64,000 nt of DNA from contig NZ_JAEMNV010000006.1 of assembly GCF_016482825.1 (NCBI RefSeq), forward strand, positions 186,001 through 250,000, in the 5' to 3' direction. The stretch is from Antrihabitans stalagmiti. Lineage in GTDB: Bacteria > Actinomycetota > Actinomycetes > Mycobacteriales > Mycobacteriaceae. Below the pieces are notes generated by a model. That model ran no database searches. It worked only from the letters and a program-made list of their open reading frames with translations, and was not told the DNA's origin. The translations under genes and the position numbers were made by a program. Of the stretch, positions 4,202 to 59,208 are shown piece after piece (the first letter of the stretch is position 1; every line of letters begins with the position of its first letter).

Positions 4202-4735
4202 ATGAGCGCCCAAACGCAGGCACTTGAGACCAGGACCTTCCTGCCGGAGCACCTCGAAGAACTGGCCCCAGTGCTGAGCTTCCTCGAGGCCCATGGGCAA
4301 AGGGGCATGACAGCGACGCCGTCATACGCCCTCGTCGGTACCGGGGAACATGAACGCATAGAGCTGCCGCAAGCAGTTCATCAGGTTCTGACGCAGGTTG
4401 TGACGGCATTGCTGGCCGGAAAAGCGGTTACCGTTGCCCCCCAAAGCATGACGCTGACCACCCAGCAGGCCGCGGACCTGCTCGGCGTCAGTCGCCCGAC
4501 CGTCGTTCGACTAATCACGGAAGGTCACCTCCCGGCTGAGCGAGTCGGAAATCGCCACCGGATACTGCTGGACAACGTGCTCGTCTATCGCGATGCGCGC
4601 CGGCAGCGCCAATACGATGCCCTCGCGGAGACCTCCGTCGACATCGACACCGAGGACGACCCAGCGACCATCCGCGAACAGCTACGCGAGGCACGAGAAG
4701 CAGTCGCGCGTCGTCGCCAGGCAGCAAAAGCCTGA
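4202..4735 (+). CDS. Excisionase-family DNA-binding antitoxin
   Basis: The product is 177 aa, started at the ATG at 4202 after GGTGAGGA. A MerR/excisionase-type helix-turn-helix lies near residues 80-125 (LTTQQAADLLGVSRPTVVRLI, here split as LTTQQAADLLGVS and RPTVVRLI; then PAERVGNRHRILLDNVLVY). A charged helical tail (DDPATIREQLREAREAVARRR) may be the toxin-binding part. In actinobacteria this architecture is common as the antitoxin of a PIN-domain toxin encoded just downstream. That toxin is present 12 bp further on, but it is broken. The gene looks intact and may persist as an orphan repressor. Confidence 0.8.
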   Translation: MSAQTQALETRTFLPEHLEELAPVLSFLEAHGQRGMTATPSYALVGTGEHERIELPQAVHQVLTQVVTALLAGKAVTVAPQSMTLTTQQAADLLGVSRPTVVRLITEGHLPAERVGNRHRILLDNVLVYRDARRQRQYDALAETSVDIDTEDDPATIREQLREAREAVARRRQAAKA

Positions 4736-4747
4736 CACAATCGCCGC

Positions 4748-5091
4748 ATGTTCGCTGTCGTGCTGGATACATGCGTCTTATGGCCGAGCCTGCAGCGCGA
4801 CTTTCTGCACATCTTTTCGCTGCGGCGGTCGTCGGTGGCGCTGGTGCCATAGTCAGCGACAATGTTGGTGACCTTCCCGCTGCCAAGATTCCCGGCCATA
4901 TTCACGTCATCACGGCTGCAGCGTTCGCGGCCGATACCGTCGCGGTCTCCCCGGATGGCGCACTTCAAGCGCTTCGAGAAATGGCCGCGCGGTACAGCAA
5001 TCCACCACACACAGTCTACGAACTGCTAGCTATTCTCGAAAACCGCTACAGCATGACCGAAGCTGTCGAAATGATCCGCAACATTGCGTGA
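4748..5091 (+). pseudogene. PIN-domain toxin (VapC-like), internally deleted
   Basis: The first frame from the ATG at 4748 reads MFAVVLDTCVLWPSLQRDFL, the usual PIN N-terminus with its first catalytic aspartate (LDTCVL), and then stops at about 4850. A different frame supplies the PIN C-terminal half: 'VVGGAGAIVSDNVGDLP', 'AADTVAVSPDGALQALREM', 'NPPHTVYELLAILE', ending at 5089-5091. Family members are about 190 residues. Here roughly 80-90 central residues, including the middle acidic residues, are lost and the halves are out of frame. The ribonuclease is therefore dead while its antitoxin is intact. Confidence 0.75.
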
Positions 5092-5188
5092 CCGGAGTCT
5101 GCGCGGTCCCGTACCGAATGAGCGCGGGCGCGGCGGGACGCGGTGACCCGACGCCACCGGTGTCGGTAGGTTGGACGATGATGCCGGG

Positions 5189-7996
5189 ATGAGTAGCGGG
5201 GTGTACGAGCGATTGGCCGACGCCGTCGGTCGAGCGAAAGCTGGGTCGCCGCTCACCGCAGTGACGGTTGTCGTACCCAGCGTTGGCGCAGGTCGGGACG
5301 TGTTGCACTACCTCGCGCGGCGCGACGGCGTCGCGAATACTCGGGTGCTGACGGTGGGGCAGGTCGTCGAACGACTGGCGGGTCCGGCGTTGTTGCCACG
5401 ACTGCCGTTGCCATATCCGTTGCTCGAAGCCGCGATCCAGCGTGTGCTCTGTGATGAGCCTGGTGTGTTTGCCGAGGTCGCGGATCAGCCGGTCACCGCG
5501 CAGGCGCTTGCGGGTGCGTCGTGGACGTTGTCGTCGTTTGCCGATCCCGTCTTGGCGGACGCGTCGCCGATGGTGGCGGACCTAATCAGGATTCATCGCA
5601 TCGCCACGCGGGCACACTCGGCGCGCTACTTCCAGCAGTGGGAGGCGTATTCCACGGCTCTCGGGCGGTTGGGGCAGCTCGGGTCGGTCGTTGCGTTTTT
5701 ACCGGGTGAATCCGATTCTGCTGCAGCCGCTTTTGTTGCCGAGCTGCGCGCTGTGGGCGAGACGATTGCCGACGAGGGTGACGTGTTCGGCACGATGGTT
5801 GTACATGCGTCCGATGCGGACGACGAGGTGCGGTCGGTTGCGCGGTTGGTGCGCTCGTATCTGTCGGCCGGGACGCCGGGACATAGGATCGGCGTCTTCT
5901 ACGGCGGTGACGACCCGTACCTGCAACTGATTCACGAACACTTCGGTCGGGCAGGGTTGGAGTTCGCTGCGCCGCAATGTCACTCGCTGATCGATCGTCC
6001 TGTGGCACGGTCGTTGTTGCGAATCCTGAAGCTGGACACCGACGTGATGCCGCGACGCGAGTTGCTCGCGATCCTGTCCGAACGTGCCGTGCGGTGGAAC
6101 GACGTCGACGGCGAACGGCTCTCGCAAATCCGGATCGAGCGGCTGACCCGAACTGCGGTTCCCATTGTCGGCGGCTCTGACTGGGATCGGTTGGGTGAGC
6201 TCGAGCCCGACGCCTATTACGCCGGAACGGCTGCGACGCTATCGGATCTGGTGACGTCGTTGCAGCGTGATCTGCGGTCGCTCAGCGGGGTGACGAGTTG
6301 GCAGGACGCGTCCGATCAGCTTGTGGCACTGCTCGATAGGTACTTCGATACGCCGTTCGCCGTTGACCTGGCATTGGTGCGGACGATGGCCGCGGGGCTT
6401 GGTGAGATGGACGGTATTGCTTCAGCACCGACGCCACGCGGGATCGCCGAAGCGATGGCCGTGCGGGTTCGGACGCATAACGAGCAGGTCGGGGTGTTGG
6501 GCGCCGGCGTGTCGGTCGGTCCCATTGCGGCGGGGGTGGGTCGGGACCTCGACGTGTGCATCGTGATCGGTGCCGCCGAAGGCATCGTGCCCGCAGCGCG
6601 ACGCGAAGATCCTTTGCTGCCAAGCGAACTCGCGGGACGAACGTTGGCCGACGAGATCGAGCAACAACGTCGCCGACTGATGCTAACCCTCGCCGGTGGT
6701 GCGCGGCATCGTGTGGTGACGTTCCCGCGGGGGAGTCTGCGTGGTGGGGCGGAGAAGGTGCCGTCACGGTGGTTGATGCCGACGCTCGATGCACTTGCCG
6801 GCAAGTCGGTGGGTGTGACGTCGTGGCAGGCTGATACGGCCGACGCGGTGACGGTTGTGTGCATCGAATCCTTCGATGCGGCAGCGCAATACGCTGACGA
6901 ACGCATCGGCGCGAGTACGGCCACCGAGACGGAGTGGCGGTTGCGTGCACTTGCAGGGGTGCCTGCCTCGGAGCGACAGACGTTGCTCGACGACGACGTT
7001 GTGCGCAACGGCATGCTGACGCGATCCGATCGGTTGAACGGGCGCTTCACGCGATTCAACGGAAATCTCTCTCGTGTAAGAGATTTGGTGCGGTTCTTCG
7101 ACAAGCCGGTGCCGCCGACGCGGCTAGAGGAATGGATCGTCAGTCCGTATCGGTTCTTCGTTCACAATCTGCTCGGCGTCGATACGCTCGACGACCCCGA
7201 TGTCTCCACCACGATGGACCCGTTGACGCGCGGCAATCTGGTCCACCTTGTGCTGGAACAGTATGTAAAGGAATGCATTGCGGGAGAGCGGCGGTCGCTG
7301 GATCGGCTGCTCGACATCGCCGAAGACGTGCTGAGCGATGCTCGGGTTCTGGCACCTGGCTGGTTGCCGCAGTTGTGGGAGAAGGACAGCGGCGTGATCA
7401 GGCGTGATCTGGTCGAGTGGTACGCGCACGACAATCGCGAGCACCTCGAAGGATGGACGCCTGCGTTTGCGGAGCGAGGCTTCGGTAAGGATCCAGATGA
7501 GGTCGAGCTCGATCTGCCTGGCGGTCGAATTCGCTTCTCGGGTGCGGTCGATCGCATCGACACGCATAGTGACGGTCGGCTGCGGGTGACCGACTACAAG
7601 ACCGGCAAGTCCGAGTACTACCGCGCACAGACTGGCGATACGCCCACCGTCGGAGGGACGCGTTTTCAGCTGCCGGTGTATGGGTTGTTCGCGCGGACTC
7701 TGGGTGCTGGTGTTGTCGAGGCTCGGTATTGGTTTGTCAGCACGAAGGGTCAGTTTGCTGAGATCGGCTATCCCGTAACCGATTCCGTGATCGACGATTT
7801 GCGCGAGGGCGTCGGGGTTGTCCATCGTGCGATATCGGCGGGCTACTTCCCGCCGAGGCCGCCCGAACCGACGATCTGGACGGACGAGTTGCTGGAGCTG
7901 TTGGGTCGGCCGGGGCTCGAACGCGCGTGGGTTGCGCTGGAGAATGTGCCGGAGCTTGCCGAGTTCGTCGCGATCTATTCGGGTGATGGGTCATGA
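5189..7996 (+). CDS. AddB-like helicase-fold/PD-(D/E)XK nuclease subunit
   Basis: The product is about 935 aa from the ATG at 5189 (a TTG at 5171 is also possible). Like AddB it begins with an inactivated helicase-type domain with no Walker A motif (TVVVPSVGAGRDVLHYLARR) and ends in a RecB-family nuclease: the His of RGNLVHLVLEQYV, GAVDRID, VTDYKTGK and QLPVYG. AddAB complexes resect double-strand breaks for recombination. AddB proteins normally hold an iron-sulphur cluster through four cysteines around the nuclease. Here the first position reads EEWIVSPYRFF (Ser) and the C-terminal tail has no cysteine, so the cluster must be absent. The gene overlaps the AddA-like gene by ATGA. Confidence 0.8.
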   Translation: MSSGVYERLADAVGRAKAGSPLTAVTVVVPSVGAGRDVLHYLARRDGVANTRVLTVGQVVERLAGPALLPRLPLPYPLLEAAIQRVLCDEPGVFAEVADQPVTAQALAGASWTLSSFADPVLADASPMVADLIRIHRIATRAHSARYFQQWEAYSTALGRLGQLGSVVAFLPGESDSAAAAFVAELRAVGETIADEGDVFGTMVVHASDADDEVRSVARLVRSYLSAGTPGHRIGVFYGGDDPYLQLIHEHFGRAGLEFAAPQCHSLIDRPVARSLLRILKLDTDVMPRRELLAILSERAVRWNDVDGERLSQIRIERLTRTAVPIVGGSDWDRLGELEPDAYYAGTAATLSDLVTSLQRDLRSLSGVTSWQDASDQLVALLDRYFDTPFAVDLALVRTMAAGLGEMDGIASAPTPRGIAEAMAVRVRTHNEQVGVLGAGVSVGPIAAGVGRDLDVCIVIGAAEGIVPAARREDPLLPSELAGRTLADEIEQQRRRLMLTLAGGARHRVVTFPRGSLRGGAEKVPSRWLMPTLDALAGKSVGVTSWQADTADAVTVVCIESFDAAAQYADERIGASTATETEWRLRALAGVPASERQTLLDDDVVRNGMLTRSDRLNGRFTRFNGNLSRVRDLVRFFDKPVPPTRLEEWIVSPYRFFVHNLLGVDTLDDPDVSTTMDPLTRGNLVHLVLEQYVKECIAGERRSLDRLLDIAEDVLSDARVLAPGWLPQLWEKDSGVIRRDLVEWYAHDNREHLEGWTPAFAERGFGKDPDEVELDLPGGRIRFSGAVDRIDTHSDGRLRVTDYKTGKSEYYRAQTGDTPTVGGTRFQLPVYGLFARTLGAGVVEARYWFVSTKGQFAEIGYPVTDSVIDDLREGVGVVHRAISAGYFPPRPPEPTIWTDELLELLGRPGLERAWVALENVPELAEFVAIYSGDGS

Positions 7997-31297: not shown

Positions 31298-31301
31298 AAA
31301 C

Positions 31302-31372
31302 GTCAGCGTGCGCCGATTCGGGTCGGTGTGCACCTTGCTGGATGCACGCTGACCAGAATCGACGCACGCTGA
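31302..31372. repeat. Triplicated GCACGCTGA element
   Basis: GTCAGCGTGC (31302-31311) is the exact complement of GCACGCTGAC (31344-31353), and GCACGCTGA recurs at 31364-31372. The inverted pair can form a stem with a 32-base loop just after the alarmone synthetase gene, so it may be its terminator. Alternatively, the three copies are binding sites. Confidence 0.4.
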
Positions 31373-31385
31373 TGTGCAGGTTTGG

Positions 31386-48206: not shown

Positions 48207-48264
48207 GGCCTTCGGCCTCGTGAGTCTTTTCGGAGGTCCGGCCCTCCTGAAGTGCTCACGAGCG
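48207..48264 (-). repeat. Dispersed two-hairpin repeat, copy A (inverted)
   Basis: CTCGTGAG (48217-48224) pairs with CTCACGAG (48255-48262), with GGAGG/CCTCC inside. A small hairpin GGCC-TTC-GGCC (48207-48217) precedes it. Read on the minus strand it aligns closely with copy C. It lies in the divergent region between the reductase and the SDR, within the likely 5' untranslated region of the reductase. Confidence 0.85.
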
Positions 48265-48273
48265 GTAGCTTAC

Positions 48274-48292
48274 TAAGGTAAGGGTTACCTCC
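48274..48292. promoter_or_regulatory. Candidate IdeR/DtxR iron box
   Basis: TAAGGTAAGGGTTACCTCC contains a perfect AGGTAA-GGG-TTACCT inverted repeat and matches the IdeR consensus (TTAGGTTAGGCTAACCTAA) at most positions. It lies between the divergent reductase and SDR genes, about 85 bp upstream of the former. IdeR with ferrous iron would repress transcription. Confidence 0.5.
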
Positions 48293-48375
48293 ATAAATTG
48301 GTGACGTGCGTCATAGAAGAATCACACTGCGCCAATGCCGTGGCCGCAGGTGGCTGCGTGGGTAGCGTCGTCTGC

Positions 48376-49173
48376 ATGGATCTTGGTCTGGCAGGCAAAC
48401 GAGCAATCGTCACCGGTGGCAGTCGTGGCATCGGCAAGGCAATCGCACTCGGGTTGGCACGCGAAGGAGTCGACGTCGTCATTGCGGCGCGCGATGCGGC
48501 CGTCCTCGAAGCGACGGCTCGCGACATCGCACAGGAAACAGGCCGCCGGGTACTCGGCGTTGCGACCGACACCGGTGACGATGCGGCAGTGCAGGCATTG
48601 GTACAGCGCACCGTCGACGAACTCGGTGGCGTCGACATCCTCGTCAACTCCGCTGCAACGCCGTGGAGTGCCGGTGCACCAAAAGATTTCGCGTCGACAA
48701 CAGACGAGATTGTGCGGCGCGAGATCGAGATCAAGGTGCTCGGCTACCTCCGCACTGCCCGCGCGGTCGCGCCCCATTTTGTCGAGCAGGGCTGGGGCCG
48801 GATCATCAACATCAGCGGACTCGGTGCACGACAGGCGAATTCGATCGCACAGACGATCCGCAACGTCAGCGTCTCTGCTCTGACGAAGAATCTGGCGGAC
48901 GAACTGGGGCCGAAGGGCATCAACGTCACGGTCGTCCACCCTGGTCTGACGCGTACCGAGCGCCTCACCGACCGTCTGACCGCGCAGGCAGCCTCGGGTG
49001 ATTCGACGGTCGCTGAACTCGAAGCCGCACTTGTGAAGAACTCCATTCGTCGGGTCGTCGACGCGAGCGAGGTCGCCGACGTCGTGACGTTCCTTGCATC
49101 GCCACGCAGCATCGGCATCACCGGCGACGCGATCGCGGTAGGTGGCGGAGTGCCGGGTCCGGTGTACTACTGA
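48376..49173 (+). CDS. SDR-family protein with altered active site
   Basis: The product is 265 aa from the ATG at 48376, 7 nt after TAGCGT. The nucleotide-binding part is normal (TGGSRGIGKAIALGLA, DTGDDAAVQ, ILVNSAA). The active-site helix is not: after the catalytic Ser (INISGLGARQ) the YxxxK position reads 'SIAQTIRNVSVSALTKNL', with neither Tyr nor the usual Lys. SDRs with an IRNVAV-type helix form a known but uncharacterised subset. The protein may use another residue or only bind cofactor. The substrate is unknown. Confidence 0.82.
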   Translation: MDLGLAGKRAIVTGGSRGIGKAIALGLAREGVDVVIAARDAAVLEATARDIAQETGRRVLGVATDTGDDAAVQALVQRTVDELGGVDILVNSAATPWSAGAPKDFASTTDEIVRREIEIKVLGYLRTARAVAPHFVEQGWGRIINISGLGARQANSIAQTIRNVSVSALTKNLADELGPKGINVTVVHPGLTRTERLTDRLTAQAASGDSTVAELEAALVKNSIRRVVDASEVADVVTFLASPRSIGITGDAIAVGGGVPGPVYY

Positions 49174-49195
49174 TCAACTGTCGGATAATGACTGG

Positions 49196-49579
49196 ATGAC
49201 CGACACCAACTGCCCATGCTGCAGTGGCGAAATCTACGACGCCTGCTGCGGCCCGGTCCTGGCGGGCGACAAACCTGCTGCGACGGCGACGCGGCTGATG
49301 CGGTCGCGCTATACCGCGTTTGCAGTCGGAGATCGTGACCATCTCGTGCGGTCGTGGCATCCGCAGATGCGACCGAAGAAGCTGACGCTCGATCCGGATC
49401 AGGAGTGGATTCTGCTCGATGTGCTCGGTTCGAGCAAGGGCAGCATGTTCGACACCGAGGGAACGGTGGAGTTCAGGGCGCACTATCGCCTCGATGGTCG
49501 ACGCGACGTGCTGCAAGAAAACAGTAGTTTCGTGCGGTACGAGGGTCGCTGGGTCTATTGGGGGCCTTTGGTGTCGTGA
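49196..49579 (+). CDS. YchJ family SEC-C-like protein
   Basis: The product is 127 aa from the ATG at 49196, 6 nt after GATAAT (leaderless pattern). It has 'CPCCSGEIYDACCGPVLAG' (zinc-binding cysteine cluster), 'ATRLMRSRYTAFAVGDRDHLVRSW' (landmark LMRSRYTAFAVGD) and 'YEGRWVYWGPL'. This is the full YchJ (UPF0225) pattern. The function is unknown. The stop codon lies inside the left arm of repeat copy B. Confidence 0.88.
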   Translation: MTDTNCPCCSGEIYDACCGPVLAGDKPAATATRLMRSRYTAFAVGDRDHLVRSWHPQMRPKKLTLDPDQEWILLDVLGSSKGSMFDTEGTVEFRAHYRLDGRRDVLQENSSFVRYEGRWVYWGPLVS

Positions 49580-49629
49580 GCACTTTCGGAGGTTGGGCCG
49601 TCCAGAAAGACGCACAAGGCCGAAGGCCC
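49573..49629 (+). repeat. Dispersed two-hairpin repeat, copy B
   Basis: The most degenerate copy: TCGTGAGCACTTTCGGAGG (49574-49592), then a GGGCC centre, then GTCCAGAAAGACGCAC. It ends in the small hairpin GGCC-GAA-GGCC (49618-49628), the same hairpin as in copy A on the minus strand. It supplies the TGA of the YchJ gene and ends 50 bp before pknK. Confidence 0.8.
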
Positions 49630-49678
49630 TGGGACTATGCTGGTGACCTAAGCCCGCAGCCCCGAACCGAGACCAAAG

Positions 49679-52600
49679 ATGGTCCATACCGATCCGTCCT
49701 CGACGCAGCCCGACCTGGCGTCGACGTTCGTCGCTGAGCTTGCAGCGGCGGGATTCGAGGATGCCCGCGAAATCGGTAGAGGCGGATTCGGCGTCGTATA
49801 TCGCTGTGAACAACGCAGTCTCGACCGCACGGTCGCCATCAAAGTTCTGACCGCCGACCTCGACGAGGAAAACCTGCAGCGGTTCCTGCGGGAGCAGCGG
49901 GCGATGGGCAAGCTGTCCGGCCACCCGAACATCGTCACGATCCTGGAGGTCGGCGCGACTGCGGCGGGGCGTCCGTACATCGTGATGCAGCACCACCCGC
50001 ACGGGTCGCTGGAAGGCGCGATCCATCGGGACGGACCGATCAGCTGGAAAGAATCGGTGCGTGTCGGCATCAAGATGTCGGGAGCGCTCGAAACTGCCCA
50101 CCTACACGGGACGCTGCACCGAGACGTGAAGCCCGGCAACATCTTGCTGACCGAATACGGCGAACCGCAGTTGACCGACTTCGGCATCGCGAGGATCTCC
50201 GGCGGCTTCGAGACGTCCAAAGGTGCGGTGACGGGATCGCCCGCGTTCACCGCGCCGGAGGTGTTGCAGGGCCATCCGCCCGACCCGACCTCCGACGTCT
50301 ACAGCCTCGCCTCGACACTGTTCTGTTCGGTGACGGGTCATGCCGTCTTCGAGCGGCGCAGCGGCGAGCACATGGTGGCGCAGTTTCTTCGAATCACCAA
50401 GCAGCCGACGCCGGATCTGAGCGACTCAGGTCTGCCTGCGGACGTCGCCGCGCTGATCGAGCGGGCGATGTCACGCGAGCGCGGTGCCCGCCCCTCGACT
50501 CCCGCGGCGTTCGGTGAACTGCTGCAAGAGATTCAGCGCAGGCACAGCCTGCCGGTCGACGACGTGCCGGTGCCGATCGCGTCGTCGGGGACGGGTAACG
50601 GACAGGGCGACGCGTCGATGACGACGGGGTCGGGTCGGCGCGGCTATTCGGCGCGGACGGTCACCCCGCCGGCGCCTGCGACGCGATTCAGACCACCTGC
50701 TCCGACGCGCGCGTTGGTCGGTCGCAACCGGTTGATCGAGCAACTGCAGCGTGGGCAGCAGCGCCGGCTGACCGTCATCCATGGACCGACCGGATTCGGA
50801 AAGAGCACGCTCGCCGCGCAATGGTGCGAACGGCTCACGGAGGACGGTCACGCGATCGCCTGGCTGACCGTCGACCACGACGACAACAACGTCGTGTGGT
50901 TCCTGTCGCATCTCATCGAAGCGATCCGGGCAGTGCGTCCTGCGCTAGCTCACGAGCTTGCCGAGGTGCTCGAAGAGCACGGCGACGAGTCCGAGCGCTA
51001 CGTTCTGACGTCGCTGATCAACGACATTCACGCGACCGGCGAACGGATGACGGTCGTCGTCGACGACTGGCATCGCATCTCCGATCGTTCCACCATCCTC
51101 GCTTTGCGGTTCCTACTCGACAACTGTTGTCCCGGTTTGCATGTCGTTGTCACCAGTCGCAGCCAGCAGGGACTTCCGATGAGCCGCATGCGGATGCAGA
51201 ATCAGCTGCTCGAGATCGACTCTGCGGCTTTGCGTTTCGACAATGAGGAGTCGCACAGCTTCCTCGTCGACCTTGGTGGACTCGATCTGGATCGTGCCGA
51301 CGTTGCGGATCTGACGGAGTCGACGGACGGGTGGGTCGCCGCGCTGCAACTTGCGTCGTTGTCGTTGCGGGGCAGCGACGATCCGTCCGAGCTCATCGGC
51401 CATCTGACCGGGCGCCACCACGCGATCAGCGAGTTTCTTGCCGAGAACGTGCTCGATACCCTCGAGCCGGACATGCTCGACTTCCTGCTCGCGACGTCGG
51501 TGACCGAACGGATCTGCGGCGATCTCGCCTCGGCCCTTGCCGACGTTCCCAACGGCCAACTGATGCTGGAGGAGGTTGCCGAACGCGACCTGTTCCTCCA
51601 TCGCGTCGACGATCAATGGTTCCGCTACCACCACCTGTTCGCAGACTTTCTGCGGCAACGGCTCGAACGGCAGACAGGCGGCCGAGTACGCGAACTGCAC
51701 CGCACCGCGTCGCAGTGGTTCGCCGATAACCGACACGTCAGCGACGCGGTGGATCACGCACTCGCAGCAGGTGATCAGCTGCGCGCCGTCGAGATCGTCG
51801 AGCAGGACGGCACCTACCTGCTCGAGCATTCGCAGATGGCGTCGCTCATCGGTCTTGTCGAGAAGTTGCCCGAGACAGTGGTCGATACGCATGCGCGTCT
51901 GCAACTTGCGTTGGCGTGGGCCAACATCTTCCTGCATCGGGCGGAGCCTGCTCGGCACGCGTTGCGGTTGGTGGAGTCGACGTTGGACGAGTCCGGCCTG
52001 ACCGCAGCCGAGATCGAGGACCTGCGGATCGAGGCGTGCGTCGTCCACGGCGTCGTCGCCCTCCGCGCCGACGTCATCGACAGCATCGACGAACTTGTCG
52101 CGCCGTGTCTGGCGCGTCCGGATACGTTGCGGCCGTTCGTCGTTTCGGTCGCAGCCAACCTGGCTACCTTCGCGGCGGCATACCGCTGCGATCGAACCGA
52201 GCTGGAACGGTTGCAGGACTGGGCCGTTCCCTATCGCCGACGAAACAAGGGGAAGTACAACGAGATTCACGCCCTGTGCTTCGTCGGGCTCGGCGCGAGC
52301 CTGATGCTCGACATCGAGGCCGCCGAGCGCAGTTTCAGGAAGGCTCTGAAGGTCGCACGGCATTCCGGTGGCAGCCATTCCTACACAGCTCGGCTCGCGG
52401 GGTCGCTGCTCGGTGAATTGCTCTACGAGCGCGGCGATGTCACCGAGGCCGAACGGCTACTGGACGAGGGTTACAAGCTCGGTGCCGAAGGCGGCTCGGT
52501 CGATTTCAAGATCGCACGCTACGTCGTCGGCGCACGGATCAAGGCGCTGCAGGGCGACCGAGCGGCCGCGACGCGTCGGTTGAACGAGGGTGCGCGGATC

Positions 52601-53149
52601 GGTCGGTCGATGGCGTTGACACGCTTGAGCGCCGAAGTCGAGAACGAGCGCATACGGCTCGGGCTGCCGCCACATCCCGAGTTCGGAGCGTTGCCGGTCG
52701 TCCAGTACGAGGACCGCAGGCAACCGACCGACCCCATCGAGGAGATCACCGCGCTCTACGAGGAAGCGACTGCGATCAGATTGCTTCTGGCTCAGCGTGA
52801 TAGGCCGGAGAAGGTCGAACTTGCCAGGGTGTGGGCGCAGGAATGGGTCGATCGGCTGCGGGCTCGCAACCGGCCGCGCGCGCTGCTGAAGGTCCGTCGT
52901 CTGCTCGTCGCCTGCCTCGTCGCGACAGGTCGTATCGACGAAGCCAAACTGAACCTGGCAACGATTCTGGCGCAGTGTGCTCGCCTCGGATCGGTGCGCT
53001 ACATCCTCGACGGGGGTCCGTATGTCGTGCAGATGATTGCGGCGTTGCGAGAGGATCAGGTCGCGGGGCGGTGGGCCTCCGATTGGCCCGAGGTGCCAGC
53101 CGAATTCCTGATCCAACTCGTCAATGCCGAAGCGGCGCAGGAGATTTAG
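49679..53149 (+). CDS. pknK: PknK-type Ser/Thr kinase fused to a MalT-like STAND ATPase
   Basis: The product is 1156 aa. The kinase domain (about 27-290) has GRGGFGVVYRC, VAIKVL, LHRDVKPGNILL and LTDFGIARI, all catalytic residues present. After a Pro/Thr-rich linker comes an AAA/STAND ATPase with Walker A GPTGFGKST (about residue 370) and VVVDDWHR as Walker B. A long TPR-like helical region fills the second half. There is no LuxR helix-turn-helix at the end. This is the domain order and length of mycobacterial PknK, a soluble kinase linked to growth-phase and translational control. Repeat copies B and C flank the gene. Confidence 0.92.
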   Translation: MVHTDPSSTQPDLASTFVAELAAAGFEDAREIGRGGFGVVYRCEQRSLDRTVAIKVLTADLDEENLQRFLREQRAMGKLSGHPNIVTILEVGATAAGRPYIVMQHHPHGSLEGAIHRDGPISWKESVRVGIKMSGALETAHLHGTLHRDVKPGNILLTEYGEPQLTDFGIARISGGFETSKGAVTGSPAFTAPEVLQGHPPDPTSDVYSLASTLFCSVTGHAVFERRSGEHMVAQFLRITKQPTPDLSDSGLPADVAALIERAMSRERGARPSTPAAFGELLQEIQRRHSLPVDDVPVPIASSGTGNGQGDASMTTGSGRRGYSARTVTPPAPATRFRPPAPTRALVGRNRLIEQLQRGQQRRLTVIHGPTGFGKSTLAAQWCERLTEDGHAIAWLTVDHDDNNVVWFLSHLIEAIRAVRPALAHELAEVLEEHGDESERYVLTSLINDIHATGERMTVVVDDWHRISDRSTILALRFLLDNCCPGLHVVVTSRSQQGLPMSRMRMQNQLLEIDSAALRFDNEESHSFLVDLGGLDLDRADVADLTESTDGWVAALQLASLSLRGSDDPSELIGHLTGRHHAISEFLAENVLDTLEPDMLDFLLATSVTERICGDLASALADVPNGQLMLEEVAERDLFLHRVDDQWFRYHHLFADFLRQRLERQTGGRVRELHRTASQWFADNRHVSDAVDHALAAGDQLRAVEIVEQDGTYLLEHSQMASLIGLVEKLPETVVDTHARLQLALAWANIFLHRAEPARHALRLVESTLDESGLTAAEIEDLRIEACVVHGVVALRADVIDSIDELVAPCLARPDTLRPFVVSVAANLATFAAAYRCDRTELERLQDWAVPYRRRNKGKYNEIHALCFVGLGASLMLDIEAAERSFRKALKVARHSGGSHSYTARLAGSLLGELLYERGDVTEAERLLDEGYKLGAEGGSVDFKIARYVVGARIKALQGDRAAATRRLNEGARIGRSMALTRLSAEVENERIRLGLPPHPEFGALPVVQYEDRRQPTDPIEEITALYEEATAIRLLLAQRDRPEKVELARVWAQEWVDRLRARNRPRALLKVRRLLVACLVATGRIDEAKLNLATILAQCARLGSVRYILDGGPYVVQMIAALREDQVAGRWASDWPEVPAEFLIQLVNAEAAQEI

Positions 53150-53161
53150 GCGGCGCCGCCG

Positions 53162-53219
53162 CTCGTGAGCACTTTAGGAGGTGCGGCCCTCCGAAAGGAC
53201 TCACGAGGCGCGGAGCGCC
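53162..53219 (+). repeat. Dispersed two-hairpin repeat, copy C
   Basis: CTCGTGAG (53162-53169) pairs with CTCACGAG (53200-53207), with TTTAGGAGG and CCTCCGAAAG inside. The second hairpin GGCGC-GGA-GCGCC follows (53207-53219). It lies between pknK and the hydrolase-like gene, 12 bp after the pknK stop. Confidence 0.85.
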
Positions 53220-53251
53220 CTTGCCGATTTTCACCGGGCATGATTGGACAC

Positions 53252-53884
53252 ATGGCAGCCCCCGCAACACCTCCAGGCCACGGCATCGATCCCCGCCGCA
53301 CGGCGATTCTCGCGCTGCACTGGCAGGTCAACGTCATCGAGCCCGAAGGCTTCTTCGGTCCGATGTTGGCGACACCGGTGGCCGAGAGTGGGGTCGTCGA
53401 TCGTGCTGTCCGATTTCACGACGCCATCCGCGCGGCCGGGCTGCCGCTGATCTTCACTCGGTTTACCGTTCCGGAGGATGAGGGCCAGCTGATTCGCAAC
53501 ACCGGGTTCATGACGGCCGTCGGTGCTGCGCAGGAATCCTTTCGGCCGGACTCGTCCGGCGCCGCGTTGATCGATGCGATGGCGCACCAAGCCGAGCCAG
53601 GACTGGTGTTCGACAATCAGCGACTCTCCGGTTTAGCCGCCAACGGCGTCGCGGCATGGTTGACCGAGCATGGCATCGACACCGTCTTAGTCACCGGCGT
53701 CGCAACCAACCTCACGGTCGAGCAAACCGCCCGACACGGGACGGACCTCGGCTTCATCGTCCATCCGATCATCGACTGCATGGCTGCTCCGACACCTGAG
53801 GTGCACGCGGCGTCACTAGCCAACCTCGACCTCACGACAGCGGGCTGCCTGAGCGCCGAGGAGGCGTTGGCTCTCCTCGGCTGA
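53252..53884 (+). CDS. Isochorismatase-fold protein lacking catalytic residues
   Basis: The product is 210 aa from the ATG at 53252 (an ATG at 53240 is also possible). The fold is clear: 'RRTAILALHWQVNVIEPEGFFG' in landmarks ILALHWQVN, 'AAGLPLIFTRF', 'VLVTGVATNLTVEQTARHGTDLGF' (landmarks TGVATNLTVEQTARH). Active members need Asp, Lys and Cys. Here the Asp position is His (LHWQ), the Cys position is Thr (TNLTVE for TNVCVE), and the Lys region reads FDNQRLSGL with no Lys. It is therefore probably a non-catalytic relative. It contrasts with the intact triad of the biuret hydrolase-like protein at 44.2 kb. Confidence 0.82.
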   Translation: MAAPATPPGHGIDPRRTAILALHWQVNVIEPEGFFGPMLATPVAESGVVDRAVRFHDAIRAAGLPLIFTRFTVPEDEGQLIRNTGFMTAVGAAQESFRPDSSGAALIDAMAHQAEPGLVFDNQRLSGLAANGVAAWLTEHGIDTVLVTGVATNLTVEQTARHGTDLGFIVHPIIDCMAAPTPEVHAASLANLDLTTAGCLSAEEALALLG

Positions 53885-53891
53885 TCCCGAC

Positions 53892-55283
53892 CTACGCTGC
53901 CTGTTCTGCGATGGGGGAGTTGAGCGCGAATTCGAGTTCTGGCAACACTTCCCAGAACGGATCGCAGAACGCGTGTACGTCATGGGCGTTGAAGGATGCT
54001 CGCTCGACCAGCAATGCCGTTGCACAGCAAAGGAATTCGGTGAGATAAAACTCGACGTCCGCAACGAAGCTTGCGCGAACCCCTATGAAACTTCCCGCCA
54101 GCAGCTCGCTCGCCGGCGGGCAACCTCGCTGACCGGTCACGGCTAGCCCGCGTAAGCGTGCGGCGAGCGGCGTGGTCCGCAATTCGAGCCAGGCAGCTAT
54201 GAGGTAGTCCAATTCGTCCCAATCTGCCCCGTCTAGTTGCATCCGGACGGTGTCGAGAATGTGTTCAGGTGCCAACCACGCCTCCTCCGGAGCCATGGAG
54301 GACGACGTGTGCGCCGAACTCCATGGACCGAACGCGGCTAGGCGCGTCGAGTCGTCGAGTTGGTCGGCAACGGTCGATGCGACCAGGATGGCTGCGAGTT
54401 GGTCGACCAAGACGCCCGAAAGGCCGTTGCACATGTCGCCGACGTCGTCCATACCGCAGGTGTTCTGGATTGCCCGCCACATCGGCTCGTCGGCATGCGG
54501 ACCGCGGAAGGACTTCACCAGAGTGAGTGCCAGGCTTGCAGCTTTCTCGGCCGCGTCGTGCCGACCGACCAACTTCGCAAGTGTGTGCGCGGTACCGAGA
54601 ATCAACCGGGGGCCTACGCCTGTGGACTCCGCATCCAAGGTCCGCAGCAGTAGATCGGTGAGGATGATCGGCGTTGCCTGGGAGATCGCATGCGCCCGTG
54701 CCTCGACGATCGGCGTAAGCGGTCCGAACTCCTGTTCACACTCGAACGAAGCATCTGCGCGTGGAGCGCGGAAGCCGCGTAGACCACGGCGATTCGGTAC
54801 AACCGTCGCCAATATCGCTGCCTGTTCCGAGCGCCACAGCGGAATGGTGCCAGCTGGTAGATCGGCAAGCGGGACCACGTCCGGAAGTTGCAATCGACCA
54901 CGGATCGGGATGATGCCCGCAGTCGAATCGGCACCATATGCCTCGACGTCGTCACATGGGACGGGATCGCCCGGCGTCCAGATCACCGTCGACGCCCCAC
55001 CGTCGTACGTGCAGGAAAAGGGCTCGCCGATCGCCAACGCCCCATCAACGAGCATGCTCGCGAAGCGATTGAGCTGATGAGCGCAATCGTCGGAACTGAG
55101 TATCCAGGGGGAGTCGGACGGATCCTGCTCGGGAGCAGCCGCTAGCTGGAGCTCCGGTAGACCACGATCTGCCAAGCCGATCGTGTACGCGAACGCCGCG
55201 GTCTGATCTTCGGGATCGAAGACGTACTGAACCTTCCAAAAGATCTCACGGTGTAGCTGCTCGCGGTCGGGCTGCTCGAACAT
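53892..55283 (-). CDS. DUF4262-like protein
   Basis: The product is 463 aa. The N-terminal ~120 residues (WKVQYVFDPEDQTAAFAYTIGL in part, LADRGLPELQL, SSDDCAHQLNRFASMLVDG in part) resemble DUF4262, seen in many actinobacterial soluble proteins. The remaining 300 residues are helical, with no motif I recognise. No signal or membrane segment is present. It is convergent with the isochorismatase-fold gene, 7 bp apart. The function is unknown. Confidence 0.65.
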   Translation of the reverse strand: MFEQPDREQLHREIFWKVQYVFDPEDQTAAFAYTIGLADRGLPELQLAAAPEQDPSDSPWILSSDDCAHQLNRFASMLVDGALAIGEPFSCTYDGGASTVIWTPGDPVPCDDVEAYGADSTAGIIPIRGRLQLPDVVPLADLPAGTIPLWRSEQAAILATVVPNRRGLRGFRAPRADASFECEQEFGPLTPIVEARAHAISQATPIILTDLLLRTLDAESTGVGPRLILGTAHTLAKLVGRHDAAEKAASLALTLVKSFRGPHADEPMWRAIQNTCGMDDVGDMCNGLSGVLVDQLAAILVASTVADQLDDSTRLAAFGPWSSAHTSSSMAPEEAWLAPEHILDTVRMQLDGADWDELDYLIAAWLELRTTPLAARLRGLAVTGQRGCPPASELLAGSFIGVRASFVADVEFYLTEFLCCATALLVERASFNAHDVHAFCDPFWEVLPELEFALNSPIAEQAA

Positions 55284-55352
55284 TTGTTCCCCTCTCGTCT
55301 GGTGTCGACGAGGTTAGCGAGGGGGTCCGACATAATCGGTCGATAGCGGATC

Positions 55353-56012
55353 TTATTGGCGCAGTACAGCTTTGACGACCACGTCGTGAATCGTCAATTC
55401 CTTGCCGTCTGGCCCGACCATGGTGCGCTGCGATTCGCGAGCAGTCGAGACGTCCCAGCTGGCCGAGTCGAGGCGAGCCGTGATCGCACCCGCTGTTGCC
55501 GAGGCCGATTCCGGCGGCGAGTGGTCACCGTGACCGTGTCCATGCGCAGAGCCGTCGCCATGCGACCCGTGCTGAAGGTGGCCGACGATGAACAGGGTGC
55601 CCCCGGGAGCGACCCAGGACGCGATGCGGTCGTAGAACTCCAGCTGTGGCATCGCGGGGTGTGCGTAGTGGGTGGTGACCAGGTCGTAGCGTGCGTCCGG
55701 CTCCCACGTGGACAGGTCGGCCTCGACCCAGCGCACTCGGTCGGCGACTCCGGTTGCAGTTGCGCGATCGCCCGCGCGAGCGAGCGCATCGGCACTGATG
55801 TCCGCTGCGGTGACTTCCCAGCCGCGCGCCGCGAGCCAGGTCGCCTCGATTCCGGCGCCGCAACCCGCATCGAGAGCCGTCCCGGGTGCGAGGTTGCCGA
55901 TCTCTCGAATCAAGTGCGGGTTGGGTTGGCCAGCGGCCATCGCCATGGCGCGATCGCCATGCCAAACGTCGTCCCAGTAGTTCTTGTCGAACGAATGAGC
56001 TTGCTCAGCCAT
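55353..56012 (-). CDS. SAM-dependent methyltransferase with His-rich loop
   Basis: The product is 219 aa from the ATG at 56010-56012 (MAEQAHSFDKNYWDDVWHG). A class I Rossmann fold is clear: ALDAGCGAGIEATWLAARG (motif I), VTAADISADALARAG, WVEADLSTW and LVTTHYAHP. After the 'GGTLFIVGHL' strand an insert rich in His and Gly (HGSHGDGSAHGHGHGDH) appears, which could bind nickel, cobalt or zinc. Relatives include TehB-like and thiol methyltransferases. The substrate is unknown. Repeat copy D is just upstream of the start. Confidence 0.85.
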   Translation of the reverse strand: MAEQAHSFDKNYWDDVWHGDRAMAMAAGQPNPHLIREIGNLAPGTALDAGCGAGIEATWLAARGWEVTAADISADALARAGDRATATGVADRVRWVEADLSTWEPDARYDLVTTHYAHPAMPQLEFYDRIASWVAPGGTLFIVGHLQHGSHGDGSAHGHGHGDHSPPESASATAGAITARLDSASWDVSTARESQRTMVGPDGKELTIHDVVVKAVLRQ

Positions 56013-56069
56013 GCTTTGCCCCGTCTTCGAGTTTCTCAACTACATCCCCACACTGGTTCGGCCAAGCGA

Positions 56070-56128
56070 GTCGTGAGTCCTTTCGGAGGTCGGGCCCGCC
56101 GAAAGGACTCACGAGGCGCGAAGCGCCC
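56070..56128 (+). repeat. Dispersed two-hairpin repeat, copy D (most symmetric)
   Basis: TCGTGAGTCCTTTCGG (56071-56086) and CCGAAAGGACTCACGA (56099-56114) are perfect 16-bp complements around a GGGCCC-containing loop. The second hairpin GGCGC-GAA-GCGCC follows (56115-56127). It lies between the methyltransferase start and the end of cspA. Confidence 0.9.
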
Positions 56129-56146
56129 ACCCCTGAAACGCACTAT

Positions 56147-56172
56147 CCCCCAACACCCGAAGGTGTTGGGGG
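56147..56172 (-). terminator. cspA terminator with UUCG tetraloop
   Basis: CCCCCAACACC (56147-56157) pairs with GGTGTTGGGGG (56162-56172). On the minus strand the loop reads TTCG, a very stable tetraloop. It begins 30 bp after the cspA stop, so it terminates that short, highly expressed transcript. Confidence 0.85.
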
Positions 56173-56202
56173 ACAGTGGAGAAGCTCAGTAGAGCTGGGA
56201 GA

Positions 56203-56406
56203 TCAGACTGGGCGAACGCCGGTTGCCTGCGGGCCCTTTGCGCCCTGGCCAACCTCGAACTCGACCTTCTGGTTCTCCTCCAGAGTACGGAAACCGTTGC
56301 TCTGGATCTCGGAGTAGTGGACGAAGACGTCAGCGGAGCCATCTGCGGGGGCGATGAAGCCGAAGCCCTTTTCCGCGTTGAACCACTTAACAGTGCCCTG
56401 TGTCAT
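56203..56406 (-). CDS. cspA: Cold-shock protein CspA
   Basis: The product is 67 aa, a single cold-shock domain: [20 protein letters not shown] holds RNP1 (KGFGFI), and DVFVHYSEI holds RNP2. This is the classic length of a CspA-type RNA chaperone. A leader of up to about 200 bp separates it from the next gene upstream on the same strand, as is common for temperature-regulated csp mRNAs. A UUCG terminator follows. Confidence 0.95.
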
Positions 56407-56605
56407 GCTTTTAATATCCTTTTTTCCTACCAGGTACGACGGACGGTTCTTACTATCCATCGGGCCGGCTGAGGTCGCGACATCTTGAGAAGTATCCCGA
56501 GTGACTCGGAGTGCTCCGCTGGGAGTGCCGGACGACCGCAACATGATCCCGAGCACGTCACTACAACGAACACCAGAACTACGACCGGTTGTAACCCTAG
56601 CAAAT

Positions 56606-57748
56606 CTAACGAATCACGCAAAGGGGTACGTGCATTTCTTCTGCGGTCAACGATCCGTGGTGCCCGATCAGCATCGACTGCAGAGGCTCTGCTCCGGTCC
56701 TGACGACCGCGCCCGATCCTGTTGCGACGCAGATGACGTCGCCGATCCGCTGCACGGCGGCGTGTGTGACAGTTGGCCCGAACCACCCGTTCTCGATCAC
56801 TTCGGACCGGGAAAAGACGCCGAAATCAGTTCCGAGAATTTCTTGCCAGGTGGCGACGACGTCGTCGATTGCCCCGTTTTTCGTATAGATATGGCGCGCT
56901 CGGGGTTCGCCACCGAGCCGTGCGACGCCGGCGCGCAGACTCGATGTCGCGTCGAAGTCGACGGGGTCGATGATCTCGACCATGCCGTGATCCGCAGTGA
57001 CGATCAGTGCGGCGTCGCCCGGCAGCCGCTCGGCGATCGAGCGCGCCAACAGGTCGACTTGGGAGAGTTCGGCGGCCCAGGCATCGGAATGCGGTCCACG
57101 GACGTGGCCGGTGAGGTCGAGTTCGCCGTGATAGGCGTAGACGAGCGAGCGGGAACCGGTTCGCAGCGATTGGATGGCGCCGTCGGCGAGGTCGCCCATC
57201 GAGAAGCTCGCCCGAAATTCGCCGCCGCGCAACGAGGCTCGGCTCAGGCCTGACTCGCCCTGGTACATAGGCGCGACCCGAGAGACGGAGATGCCGGCCT
57301 CGGCGGCTCGCTCGAATGCGGTTGGGTTCGGTTGAAACTCTTCGGGAGCAACGTCTTTCAGCAGGTCGATGCGATCTCCGGCGCCGTGTAGCCGCCACTT
57401 GAGCGGGTTCATCAACCGCTGGTGGCCTGGGACAGCCAGCAGATAGCCGACGATGCCGTGCTCACCGGGAGGCAGGCCGGTACCGAGCGAACTCAAACTG
57501 GTTGCCGTCGTGCTCGGAAATCCTGCGGTGAGCACCTTCGAAGTTCGGCTGGAAAGAAACGGTGCGGCAGCGGAGTTCGCGTCGAGCAAAGCCGCACCCA
57601 GGCCGTCGACCATCAAGATGCATACGCGTTTGATGCCGTCGAGCTCGAGGCCTATTCGATCGACTTCGCCGTCGACGCCGAGCGCAGCAAGGCTCGACGG
57701 GACCAGATCTGCGAGGGATGCAGTGCCGTAGCGCGGCGCAACCAGCAT
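56606..57748 (-). CDS. Alkaline phosphatase/nucleotide pyrophosphatase superfamily protein
   Basis: The product is 380 aa from the ATG at 57746-57748 ([15 protein letters not shown]); a longer open frame upstream is Arg/Ser-rich and overlaps the divergent gene, so I reject it. Motifs of the phosphodiesterase superfamily are visible: '[14 protein letters not shown]' (metal Asp), '[15 protein letters not shown]' (nucleophile Thr), '[19 protein letters not shown]' (metal Asp and His) and '[10 protein letters not shown]' (metal Asp, His). These enzymes cleave phosphodiester or phosphonate bonds using two zinc ions. There is no signal peptide. The exact substrate is unknown. Confidence 0.85.
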
Positions 57749-57823
57749 GCCCACCAATGTAGCCGGGGGTATCCGGGCACCGGTGGCGTCGGTAGTCTGA
57801 GGTAAACATCGAGTTGTGCATGA

Positions 57824-58618
57824 ATGGCCCGTCGCCACACTTCTCTCGGACGCGCACGGGGCGAGATCGACTCGGAACGGATCGTTGCACATATGAAGGA
57901 AATTTCGGCGCTGGGAGTTCAGGCATTCGTCAGGGATGTTGTCCGGCGCGGTGGAAAGGCAACGAAAGTTGCCGGATCCGGTCGCGGAGCAGTCAAAGTG
58001 TGGGGCAAAGAGGGCGGCGTTTCCATCGTCCAAGTTCGTGCCAAGGCCAGCGGTGACTGGCATGCGAGCCGCCGCGACGAGGAAGTGGGAGCCGGCGCGG
58101 CCAACCCCACATTCTGGGCGTTCGTCGACCTCGGTACCGAGCCGCACGCGACCTTCATCATCTCGGCAGAAGAATTTGCCGCCGACGTTCGGTGCGAGGT
58201 CGACGCCTGGATGGCCGATCGGCCCGGCCGATCACGCTCCGGCGGGATCCGGATCGCGCAGGATCGGATCGCCCACAGGCGGGCGCGCTGGGACCTCCTC
58301 GGCGTCTCGGTCGTCGCCGATGCGAATATCGATACCACCCATCTGGACGACCTGACCGTCGAGAAAAAGAAGGCACCAGCCAAGGCCGCGGCCGTCGAGG
58401 ACGAGTCCGACGGCCGAACCCGCCTGGTCGCCGATTTCGAGGGCTACCGGATCGTCGCGCTTCGCGAGGAATCGACGGGTCGCCTGGAGATCGTTGCCGG
58501 ACAGATGGTCGGTCGGCACTTTCCGACAGCGTCGGCAGCCGCATCTGCCGTAGCGAGCCTGGTCAGTGGCGAAAAGGTGACGAAAGACGGCGCGGATTTC
58601 TGGCGCGCGGAAGGCTAG
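57824..58618 (+). CDS. Conserved hypothetical protein, endonuclease-like N-terminal fold
   Basis: The product is 264 aa from the ATG at 57824; an internal ATG at 57893 is also possible. The first half reads like a small PD-(D/E)XK-related domain: 'GVSIVQVRAKASGDWHASRRDEE' (landmarks VSIVQVRAKASGDW), 'NPTFWAFVDLGTEPHATFIISAEEF' (landmarks FWAFVDLG, TFIISAEEF), although the catalytic pattern is incomplete. The second half has an Ala/Lys linker and a small alpha-beta module (FEGYRIVALREESTGRLEIVAG, in part; FPTASAAASAVASLVSG). I do not recognise a characterised relative. Its stop is followed by repeat copy E. Confidence 0.6.
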   Translation: MARRHTSLGRARGEIDSERIVAHMKEISALGVQAFVRDVVRRGGKATKVAGSGRGAVKVWGKEGGVSIVQVRAKASGDWHASRRDEEVGAGAANPTFWAFVDLGTEPHATFIISAEEFAADVRCEVDAWMADRPGRSRSGGIRIAQDRIAHRRARWDLLGVSVVADANIDTTHLDDLTVEKKKAPAKAAAVEDESDGRTRLVADFEGYRIVALREESTGRLEIVAGQMVGRHFPTASAAASAVASLVSGEKVTKDGADFWRAEG

Positions 58619-58630
58619 CCCGCTCCGCGG

Positions 58631-58688
58631 GTCGTGAGTCTTTTAGGAGGGCGGGCCCGCCGAAAGGACGCACGAGCGGCGTAGCCGC
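58631..58688 (+). repeat. Dispersed two-hairpin repeat, copy E
   Basis: TCGTGAGTC (58632-58640), TTTTAGGAGG, GGGCCC centre, CCGAAAGGACGCACGA (58660-58675), then the hairpin GCGGC-GTA-GCCGC (58676-58688). It lies between the convergent stops at 58618 and 58689 and directly abuts the latter. Confidence 0.85.
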
Positions 58689-59051
58689 CTAGTCGCTCAG
58701 GGCCGGAATTTCGCCGAGCGGCCGAACTTCGCAGAAGTTGTACGCGGCATCGGGGATCTGGGCGCAGATGGCAACGGCCTCGTCCATGTTGGCGCACTCG
58801 ACGACGTAGAAGCCCGCCAAATGCTCTTTCGACTCGATGTACGGACCGTCGGTTGTCGCGACCACACCATCGCGGATACGGACGGTCTTGGTGTTGATCG
58901 GATCGGCGAGACCAGCGCTGGCGACGTGGTGTCCTGACGCGATCAGCGAATCGTTGAGTGCGCCGTGACCCCGACCCAGTCCCATTCGCTGATCGTGAGA
59001 CAAGCCTGCCCAGCTTTCGGGATTGCTGTAGATCAGCAGCATGTACTTCAT
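58689..59051 (-). CDS. YCII-related (DGPF) protein
   Basis: The product is 120 aa from the ATG at 59049-59051 (MKYMLLIYSNPESW). The DGPF signature appears as TTDGPYIESKEHLAGFYVVE, with a DGPY variant. Such proteins are almost always encoded near ECF42/SigJ-type sigma factors, and one lies 570 bp away on the other strand. A role as partner or sensor of that sigma factor is the usual inference; no enzyme activity is proven. Confidence 0.88.
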   Translation of the reverse strand: MKYMLLIYSNPESWAGLSHDQRMGLGRGHGALNDSLIASGHHVASAGLADPINTKTVRIRDGVVATTDGPYIESKEHLAGFYVVECANMDEAVAICAQIPDAAYNFCEVRPLGEIPALSD

Positions 59052-59208
59052 GGCGGCCACCCTTCGACGGTTTCGACATCAACAAGGACGTCGGCGCGAT
59101 CGGCGCGATATCGACATCATTGCCTATGTCGAGGCGGGCGTCGTGACTCCGACGTCTCAGTTGGCAGCAAAAAGCTGCACTGGTGAACACCCGATCGAAG
59201 GAGTTGTC

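Follow-up and report, generated by a model that had tools for sequence, protein, structure and literature searches.

What are the five similar palindromes that lie among ordinary genes in a 64,000-nucleotide stretch of the Antrihabitans stalagmiti genome (contig NZ_JAEMNV010000006.1, positions 186,001 to 250,000, hereafter the window), how did they come to be there, and do they do anything for the host? A preliminary description had placed them at 48207-48264, 49573-49629, 53162-53219, 56070-56128 and 58631-58688 (copies A to E, Table 1) and had taken them for an unclassified two-hairpin dispersed repeat, either a mobile family or a local regulatory RNA element. All five were confirmed in the sequence. 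A covariance model built on 31 copies, the five among them, matched these five and nothing else in the window at E ≤ 0.05, and a half-site pattern allowing up to 3 mismatches gave 10 window matches, 9 of them inside the five copies (shuffled mean 1.16). Rfam at its gathering threshold had no match in the window, so the repeat was rightly called unclassified. As far as our searches reach, we are dealing with a genuine repeat family, undescribed within the literature searched, that has a distinctive three-hairpin layout at stop codons. We give about even chances to the overall reading that it is a DNA palindrome akin to repetitive extragenic palindromic (REP) sequences and Rickettsia palindromic elements (RPE), copied by an enzyme and kept as a two-way gene boundary, a role read from its position.

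The family is far from local. In the 6.39 Mb genome (44 contigs), matches to a strict core pattern came to 44 forward rows and 38 reverse ones, with many sites counted twice, and its reversed control gave 0. A 19-nt half-site with at most 2 mismatches gave 204 + 205 = 409 rows, and the reversed pattern 2 + 3. Given that 119 distinct elements carry 1.95 half-sites each, the 409 half-sites correspond to about 210 genome copies if the remaining copies are alike, a number that disposes of a local regulatory RNA element. Covariance-model searches likewise found the repeat genome-wide (among the best 150 rows listed for this genome) and relatives of it in other genera. The 119 elements analysed below comprise the 5 window copies, 27 search loci (L001-L027) and 87 elements from 80 fetched stretches.

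The complete unit is about 74-76 bp long and consists of AG, a minihairpin, a 44-nt palindrome, a second minihairpin and CT. The palindrome, or core, starts with TCGTGAG and has arms of TCGTGAGTCYTTTCGGAGG around a 6-nt centre. A small GC hairpin with a GAA, GGA or GTA loop had been reported beside each copy, and this was borne out copy by copy: A, B and D have a GAA loop, C has GGA and E has GTA. The label of a two-hairpin element was too narrow, as C and E have an upstream minihairpin too and 72 of the 119 elements have minihairpins on both sides (41 on one side, 6 on none); the full element has three hairpins. Read outward, 177 of 185 loops were GNA (GGA 60, GTA 59, GAA 43, GCA 15, others 8), and a C-G pair closed all 177. 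The 69 elements that fit a core-only pattern gave a similar picture, with both minihairpins in 35, one in 30, none in 4, and GNA in 96 of 100 loops. Among 5-bp hairpins, the GNA/TNC type made up 139 of 163 beside cores versus 60 of 781 elsewhere, and of those 60 the listed intergenic ones number 23, 20 of which also lie beside degenerate cores. The minihairpins were also considered as separate, solo elements, an idea that we rejected as they are scarce away from cores. Their stems vary (GCGGC, GGCGC, GGCC, GCCGC) and stay self-complementary. Furthermore, left and right stems were identical in only 4 of 72 elements, where 21.5 were expected and the minimum over 20,000 shuffles was 7. Identical stems would make the whole element one long palindrome, and their avoidance suggests that the two minihairpins need to fold separately, each on itself. 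Beyond the minihairpin only CT is conserved and, to a lesser degree, an A, with position 4 being T in 38, G in 47, A in 49 and C in 47 of 181 ends. Within the core, pairs 1, 4, 5, 7, 11, 12, 15 and 16 are of a single pair type in 119 of 119 elements and pairs 6, 10, 13, 14 and 17 vary, a pattern that the search patterns favour.

The position of the element relative to genes, which were called with a purpose-written codon-usage script, is equally regular. The 119 elements lay between convergent genes in 53 cases, between tandem genes in 56 and between divergent genes in 8 (2 incomplete), against a background of 10 convergent, 35 tandem and 10 divergent among the 55 gene pairs of the window, element-bearing pairs included. 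Most gene 3' ends (153 of 164) fell within 30 nt of the element or inside its core, and 75 of the 164 stood at exactly 13 nt, the usual minihairpin length. The stop codon is the core's own TGA in 37 genes, whose proteins end in element-derived tails such as RALRAS (8) and RRLRRS (3). At the other near stops we counted TAG 87, TGA 24 and TAA 5, versus a background of TGA 215, TAG 155 and TAA 27. Both gene ends lay within 30 nt in 48 of the 53 convergent copies, and in 38 of the 53 each end was either 12-15 nt away or at the TGA of the core. None of the 119 copies in this genome was called inside a gene. The earlier statement that the copies lie between genes and often touch a stop thus stood as regards stops and was only rough as regards "between genes", since copy A sits between divergent starts and the stop of the preceding gene lies inside the core of B.

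Such a position would suit a two-way, factor-independent terminator, in which RNA hairpin clusters without a U-tract end transcription of one or both neighbours; uniformity would come from copying and retention from termination. U-tract-free hairpin clusters have indeed been proposed as terminators, about two thirds of them lying no more than 20 nt from the stop (Gupta and Pal 2021, PMC8355165). The 48 convergent copies with both stops close by agree with this explanation, as does the strength of the RNA folds of five elements (z -2.9 to -8.5). T-tracts, however, are rare: five or more T in the 8 nt past the core occurred in 0 of 56 tandem copies, and in the 10 nt past the minihairpin in 8 of 56, and none of the five window copies was called terminator-like. 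If an RNA hairpin were selected, G-T should exceed A-C in tandem copies, but the counts on the transcribed strand were nearly equal (26 to 24). Further, a minihairpin immediately 3' of a stop would lie under the terminating ribosome, and seven of nine congener junctions considered below lack the element, both of which count against terminators. We therefore rate termination by RNA hairpins as rather unlikely to be the main explanation. For 55 elements with two 5-bp minihairpins, taken on both strands, the best fold had three hairpins in 78 of 110 cases under DNA parameters and in 55 of 110 under RNA parameters, and GNA loops on G-C stems form unusually stable DNA minihairpins, according to the part of PMC4686876 compared here. 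We lean towards selection at the DNA rather than the RNA level.

Comparison with relatives suggests that pairing is what persists. With model R1 at E ≤ 1e-6, at least 20 of 151 genomes had matches, and with the cross-genus model R2 at least 67 of 301 family genomes in at least 7 of 31 genera, the genome of the window included both times. Between the genomes compared, cores differ while pairing persists. An alignment of 15 elements, 4 of them own and 11 taken from other genomes, has 95.4% of its cells paired against at most 47.1% in slid controls, and in 20 of 29 pairs both sides change, with a bias toward pairing as the rows were found via a structure model. A less biased set came from Rhodococcus ruber and R. 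aetherivorans (70 and 64 rows on both strands), where 13 orthologous sites offer 234 stem pairs, two of the sites being possibly paralogous synthetase modules and 23 of 49 element records being unmapped. Between the two species 200 pairs were unchanged, 12 had changed on both arms from one Watson-Crick pair to another, a further 2 had changed otherwise on both arms, 19 had gained or lost pairing through a change on one arm, and 1 had gone from mismatch to mismatch; by hand estimate, about 2.5 two-arm changes of any kind would be expected under independence. In the 6-nt centre, 30 of 78 bases differ. Together with the 31-copy alignment, in which pairing, minihairpins included, exceeds its shuffles, these results uphold the proposal that structure is kept while sequence changes. 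Our searches thus yielded neither a restriction to five copies without covariation nor a match to an already named family.

The same data bear on whether the element could be a duplex site for a sequence-specific protein of nucleoid, topoisomerase or condensin type, spread over the genome. A similar protein-site role has been proposed for gyrase and REP in Escherichia coli. In keeping with this, constraint along the core is uneven, though the search patterns favour that, and GTG at core positions 3-5 and G at 7 are invariant in the 15 cross-genus elements. Between genera, however, cores share little beyond an outer GTGNG, and the duplex reading leaves the GNA minihairpins with their variable stems unexplained, so we consider it improbable.

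Elements in R. ruber and R. aetherivorans, located by the covariance model (another finder gave only 1 + 1), repeat the layout at gene ends: 66 of 68 ends lie in the core or no more than 30 nt away (TAG 45, TGA 21), and 50 of 66 loops are GNA. With codon weights from the genome of the window, their 49 records were convergent in 27 cases, tandem in 14, inside genes in 7 and divergent in 1; codon weights trained on the sample gave 16 inside, 14 divergent, 12 tandem and 7 convergent, which is implausible and was set aside. The seven in-frame records represent 4 distinct sites, and five of them lie in nonribosomal peptide synthetase genes between TGD..RW and FVGR motifs; the R. ruber gene concerned has AMP-binding and Condensation domains. 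One module of the R. aetherivorans gene (L377, at 15293) has a palindrome of other sequence at the equivalent place. Separately, about 1.25 kb of extra DNA lies beside an apparently shared element in R. aetherivorans (L362, ~4600-5858) compared with R. ruber (L346, ~9235). In 80-kb samples of ten relatives the layout was seen in G023, G025 and G048 and in none of the other seven with a weak finder, and three of those seven (G002, G020 and G041) have it elsewhere in the genome. Two unlike core families, both flanked by minihairpins, occur in one genome (L290 and L292, G048).

Three convergent junctions were chosen for having an element in the genome of the window (G000), and the congeners G001-G003 were judged there by eye. 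The proteins have SIS, GMP synthase C-terminal and ACT domains, and we take them to be GlmS, GuaA and RelA. Seven of the nine congener junctions are element-free. At glmS, G003 has a 4-nt gap (TAG-TTCG-CTA); at guaA, G001 (TAG-CTCG-CTA) and G002 (TAG-CGGCG-TCA) lack the element; and at the relA end no element was found in any of G001, G002 and G003. GlmS and GuaA of the window's genome have their C-terminus at the same residue as in relatives. No target duplication is visible, direct flank matches (21 among 69 elements) being no better than with shuffling (17.5). The element-free junctions, along with the in-frame copies inside R. ruber and R. aetherivorans genes, point to insertion, and a dispersed, inserted family is in our judgement very probable. 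Two other palindromes were seen at these gene ends: an unrelated, perfect 20-nt one, CTCGGCCGACGTCGGCCGAG, immediately 3' of the relA stop codon in G003 (L304), and one of a different type, GGACTCTGTGTTGCG..GACACAGAGTCC, at the glmS end of the relatives G004 and G034 (L221 and L222).

The same junctions also provide some of the observations that weigh against an enzyme-copied DNA palindrome serving as a gene boundary. The glmS end is occupied in G000, G001 and G002 alike, with differing cores, and another genus (G023), contrary to simple independent insertion, has elements with other cores at its guaA and relA ends (L246, L309); shared occupied sites may be hot spots or old sites. The 13 nt at the guaA junction of G003 (GCGCTGCGCGGGT) may be what is left of a minihairpin and not a virgin site. 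None of the 13 R. ruber/R. aetherivorans sites, in regions chosen for carrying elements, is empty in either species, so no recent movement is shown there. Copies in G001 lack minihairpins altogether (0 of 48) and have a near-identical outer core arm; minihairpins are therefore not needed in every lineage. As for folding, half of the strands form three hairpins as RNA too, and arm pairing within the genome (2064) lies inside the shuffled range (mean 2050, standard deviation 7.9, maximum 2078). The 119 elements were picked by resemblance to the consensus, which overstates their uniformity. Finally, the boundary role at gene ends comes from position, and we hold it to be somewhat doubtful.

Part of this evidence would be expected if the palindromes were ancient residents of gene ends, maintained at their sites and made alike through gene conversion between copies, and transposing little or not at all. 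The 13 sites occupied in both Rhodococcus species, where the arms co-change and the centre has diverged, fit such a history, as do the occupied glmS ends with their different cores and the guaA and relA ends shared by G000 and G023. Against it, G000 and G001 have only about two occupied gene ends in common among 119 and 48 sites, near the chance level estimated by hand, for which reason we rejected positional conservation between these genomes; the signs of insertion given above also speak against it. We regard maintenance in place by gene conversion as quite improbable.

A further point on the negative side is that the searches for Y1_Tnp and DDE_3 brought up no mobilising enzyme. The classical candidate would be a REP-associated tyrosine transposase (RAYT), a Y1 enzyme, since lost from this genome or never present in it. 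In its favour, the elements are intergenic palindromes of convergent and tandem genes, as REPs are in the part of PMC3733652 compared here. They lack a GTAG or CGTC tag and a G-T excess, however, and Y1_Tnp (PF01797) had no match at E ≤ 0.001 in the genome, which is 99.99% complete, whereas 5 of 14 control genomes were positive. Y1 transposition would fit the absence of target duplication. Even so, a REP family mobilised by RAYT, one of the possibilities first raised, is hardly credible, and a RAYT or IS200-type mobiliser was rejected for want of Y1_Tnp. An IS630 type, which the TA at either end had brought to mind, was dropped as well, as the genome has no DDE_3 (the transposase families searched being Y1_Tnp and DDE_3) and the TA match is explained by the shared end consensus. 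Nor was a mobiliser recognised between close copies, where the open reading frames (ORFs), judged by eye with no family search made, look like ordinary host genes. A plasmid, phage or viral source was rejected too: copy D had no match among plasmids and phages, and an 18-nt half-site pattern had no exact match in viral contigs.

We return to the reading of an enzyme-copied DNA palindrome. A non-coding, dyad-symmetric DNA element would have been copied to about 210 places in the genome by a putative enzyme, presumably through a single-stranded intermediate, and kept at the ends of genes, chiefly between convergent ones, often filling the whole gap between the stops. The folded single DNA strand is probably what is recognised or selected. 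Each strand would present a C(GNA)G minihairpin at its 3' side, and the two minihairpins may be kept unlike to make each fold on its own and stay out of the long stem. For the host, the element could act as a two-way boundary, through transcription end, insulation or supercoiling. A bolder version holds that this is a new class of mobile DNA palindrome, identified by its folded strand (three hairpins, the outer two GNA-looped and unlike) and not by sequence, with a genome-specific core and a non-Y1 enzyme, that lands at stops and is kept by the host as a two-way boundary; we put this forward as speculative and, taken whole, unlikely. The family matters as a natural test of DNA hairpin selection, given that palindromy is kept while sequence differs by genome and arms co-change in a close species pair, and it is relevant to how convergent genes are kept apart in compact GC-rich genomes when T-tract terminators are not used. 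A mobilising enzyme from outside the Y1 family, if there is one, would add to the kinds of REP-like mobility now known.

The window copies illustrate much of this range (Table 1). Copy D has the perfect 16-bp stem reported earlier, which extends to 19 bp with one mismatch, and lies 88 nt from the stop of an ORF with a cold-shock domain. Copy E fills its gap exactly, with TAG at 58616-58618 (+) on one side and CTA at 58689-58691 on the other. Only copy D was recovered by a de novo palindrome finder, which is accordingly weak. Two other structures were seen in the window: an inverted repeat at 31300-31375 with 33-nt arms, 85% complementary and spaced by 10 nt, and a stem-loop of 17 pairs with one mismatch at 56141-56178, which adjoins copy D downstream of the cold-shock-domain ORF on the minus strand.

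Table 1. Copies of the element in the window with their neighbouring features, and in-frame copies in synthetase genes of two relatives.
Feature	Coordinates	Strand	Details
Copy A	48207..48261	-	inverted; core 48218-48261; minihairpin GGCC-GAA-GGCC 48207-48217; between two divergent gene starts
Copy B	49574..49628	+	core 49574-49617, degenerate, 7 departures; minihairpin GGCC-GAA-GGCC 49618-49628
Copy B, preceding ORF (YchJ-like domain)			ends at TGA 49577-49579, inside the core of B
Copy C	53150..53219	+	upstream minihairpin 53150-53162 with GGC, a non-GNA sequence, as outward loop; core 53163-53206
Copy C, downstream minihairpin	53207-53219		GGCGC-GGA-GCGCC
Copy C, neighbour			TAG stop of ORF 49679-53149 directly abuts
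Copy D	56071..56127	+	core 56071-56114; minihairpin GGCGC-GAA-GCGCC 56115-56127; upstream minihairpin absent
Copy E	58619..58688	+	upstream minihairpin CCCGC-TCC-GCGGG 58619-58631; core 58632-58675; downstream minihairpin GCGGC-GTA-GCCGC 58676-58688
TAG stop, ORF ending 58618	58616..58618	+	flush with copy E
TAG stop, ORF 58689-59060 (YCII-related domain)	58689..58691	-	flush with copy E
In-frame synthetase palindromes	L354 (R. ruber) ~1905, 8067; L377 (R. aetherivorans) 6068, 12239, 15293		several modules

How does the element compare with known systems? No prior description was found in the open literature searched, subscription papers being largely outside it, or by the Rfam search, which covered the window. 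The comparison covered parts of four papers (PMC3733652, PMC8355165, PMC12306157, PMC4686876), and the likenesses and differences below hold for those parts. REPs are dispersed short palindromes in many copies, mainly between convergent or tandem genes and some intragenic (Di Nocera 2013, PMC3733652). Those with GTAG/CGTC tags resemble the present family in their many extragenic copies, its 44 nt being slightly above the 20-40 bp of REPs, and differ from it by the tag, by RAYT and by the G-T excess, none of which was found here, as well as by the three hairpins here, mostly flush with stop codons. The words Actinobacteria, Mycobacterium, Rhodococcus and Nocardia are absent from the main text of PMC3733652, and the parts of two REP surveys compared name neither Rhodococcus, Nocardia nor Mycobacterium, one of them listing three other Actinomycetota. 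RPEs, as portrayed in PMC3733652, are palindromes that may lie in-frame inside genes, like the copies in R. ruber and R. aetherivorans; the present element lies mostly at stop codons, has three hairpins and an unrelated host, and is set apart by description and not by sequence. Although likened to REP and RPE in the way it would work, it is not filed as a REP because it fails the tag, RAYT and G-T tests. Miniature inverted-repeat transposable elements are likewise non-coding and dispersed with terminal inverted repeats, whereas here no target duplication was detected, no DDE_3 transposase is present and the arms are only 6 nt apart. Hairpin-cluster terminators share the adjacent hairpins immediately past the stop codon, with no sequence conservation reported within 25 bases of stop codons in PMC8355165, whereas here the genome has one main sequence family, symmetric for both strands. 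The outer hairpins resemble the GNA minihairpins of DNA such as d(GCGAAGC) (PMC4686876) in having C(GNA)G loops and G-C stems; there such hairpins are synthetic fragments and aptamer parts, whereas here they recur within a genomic repeat.

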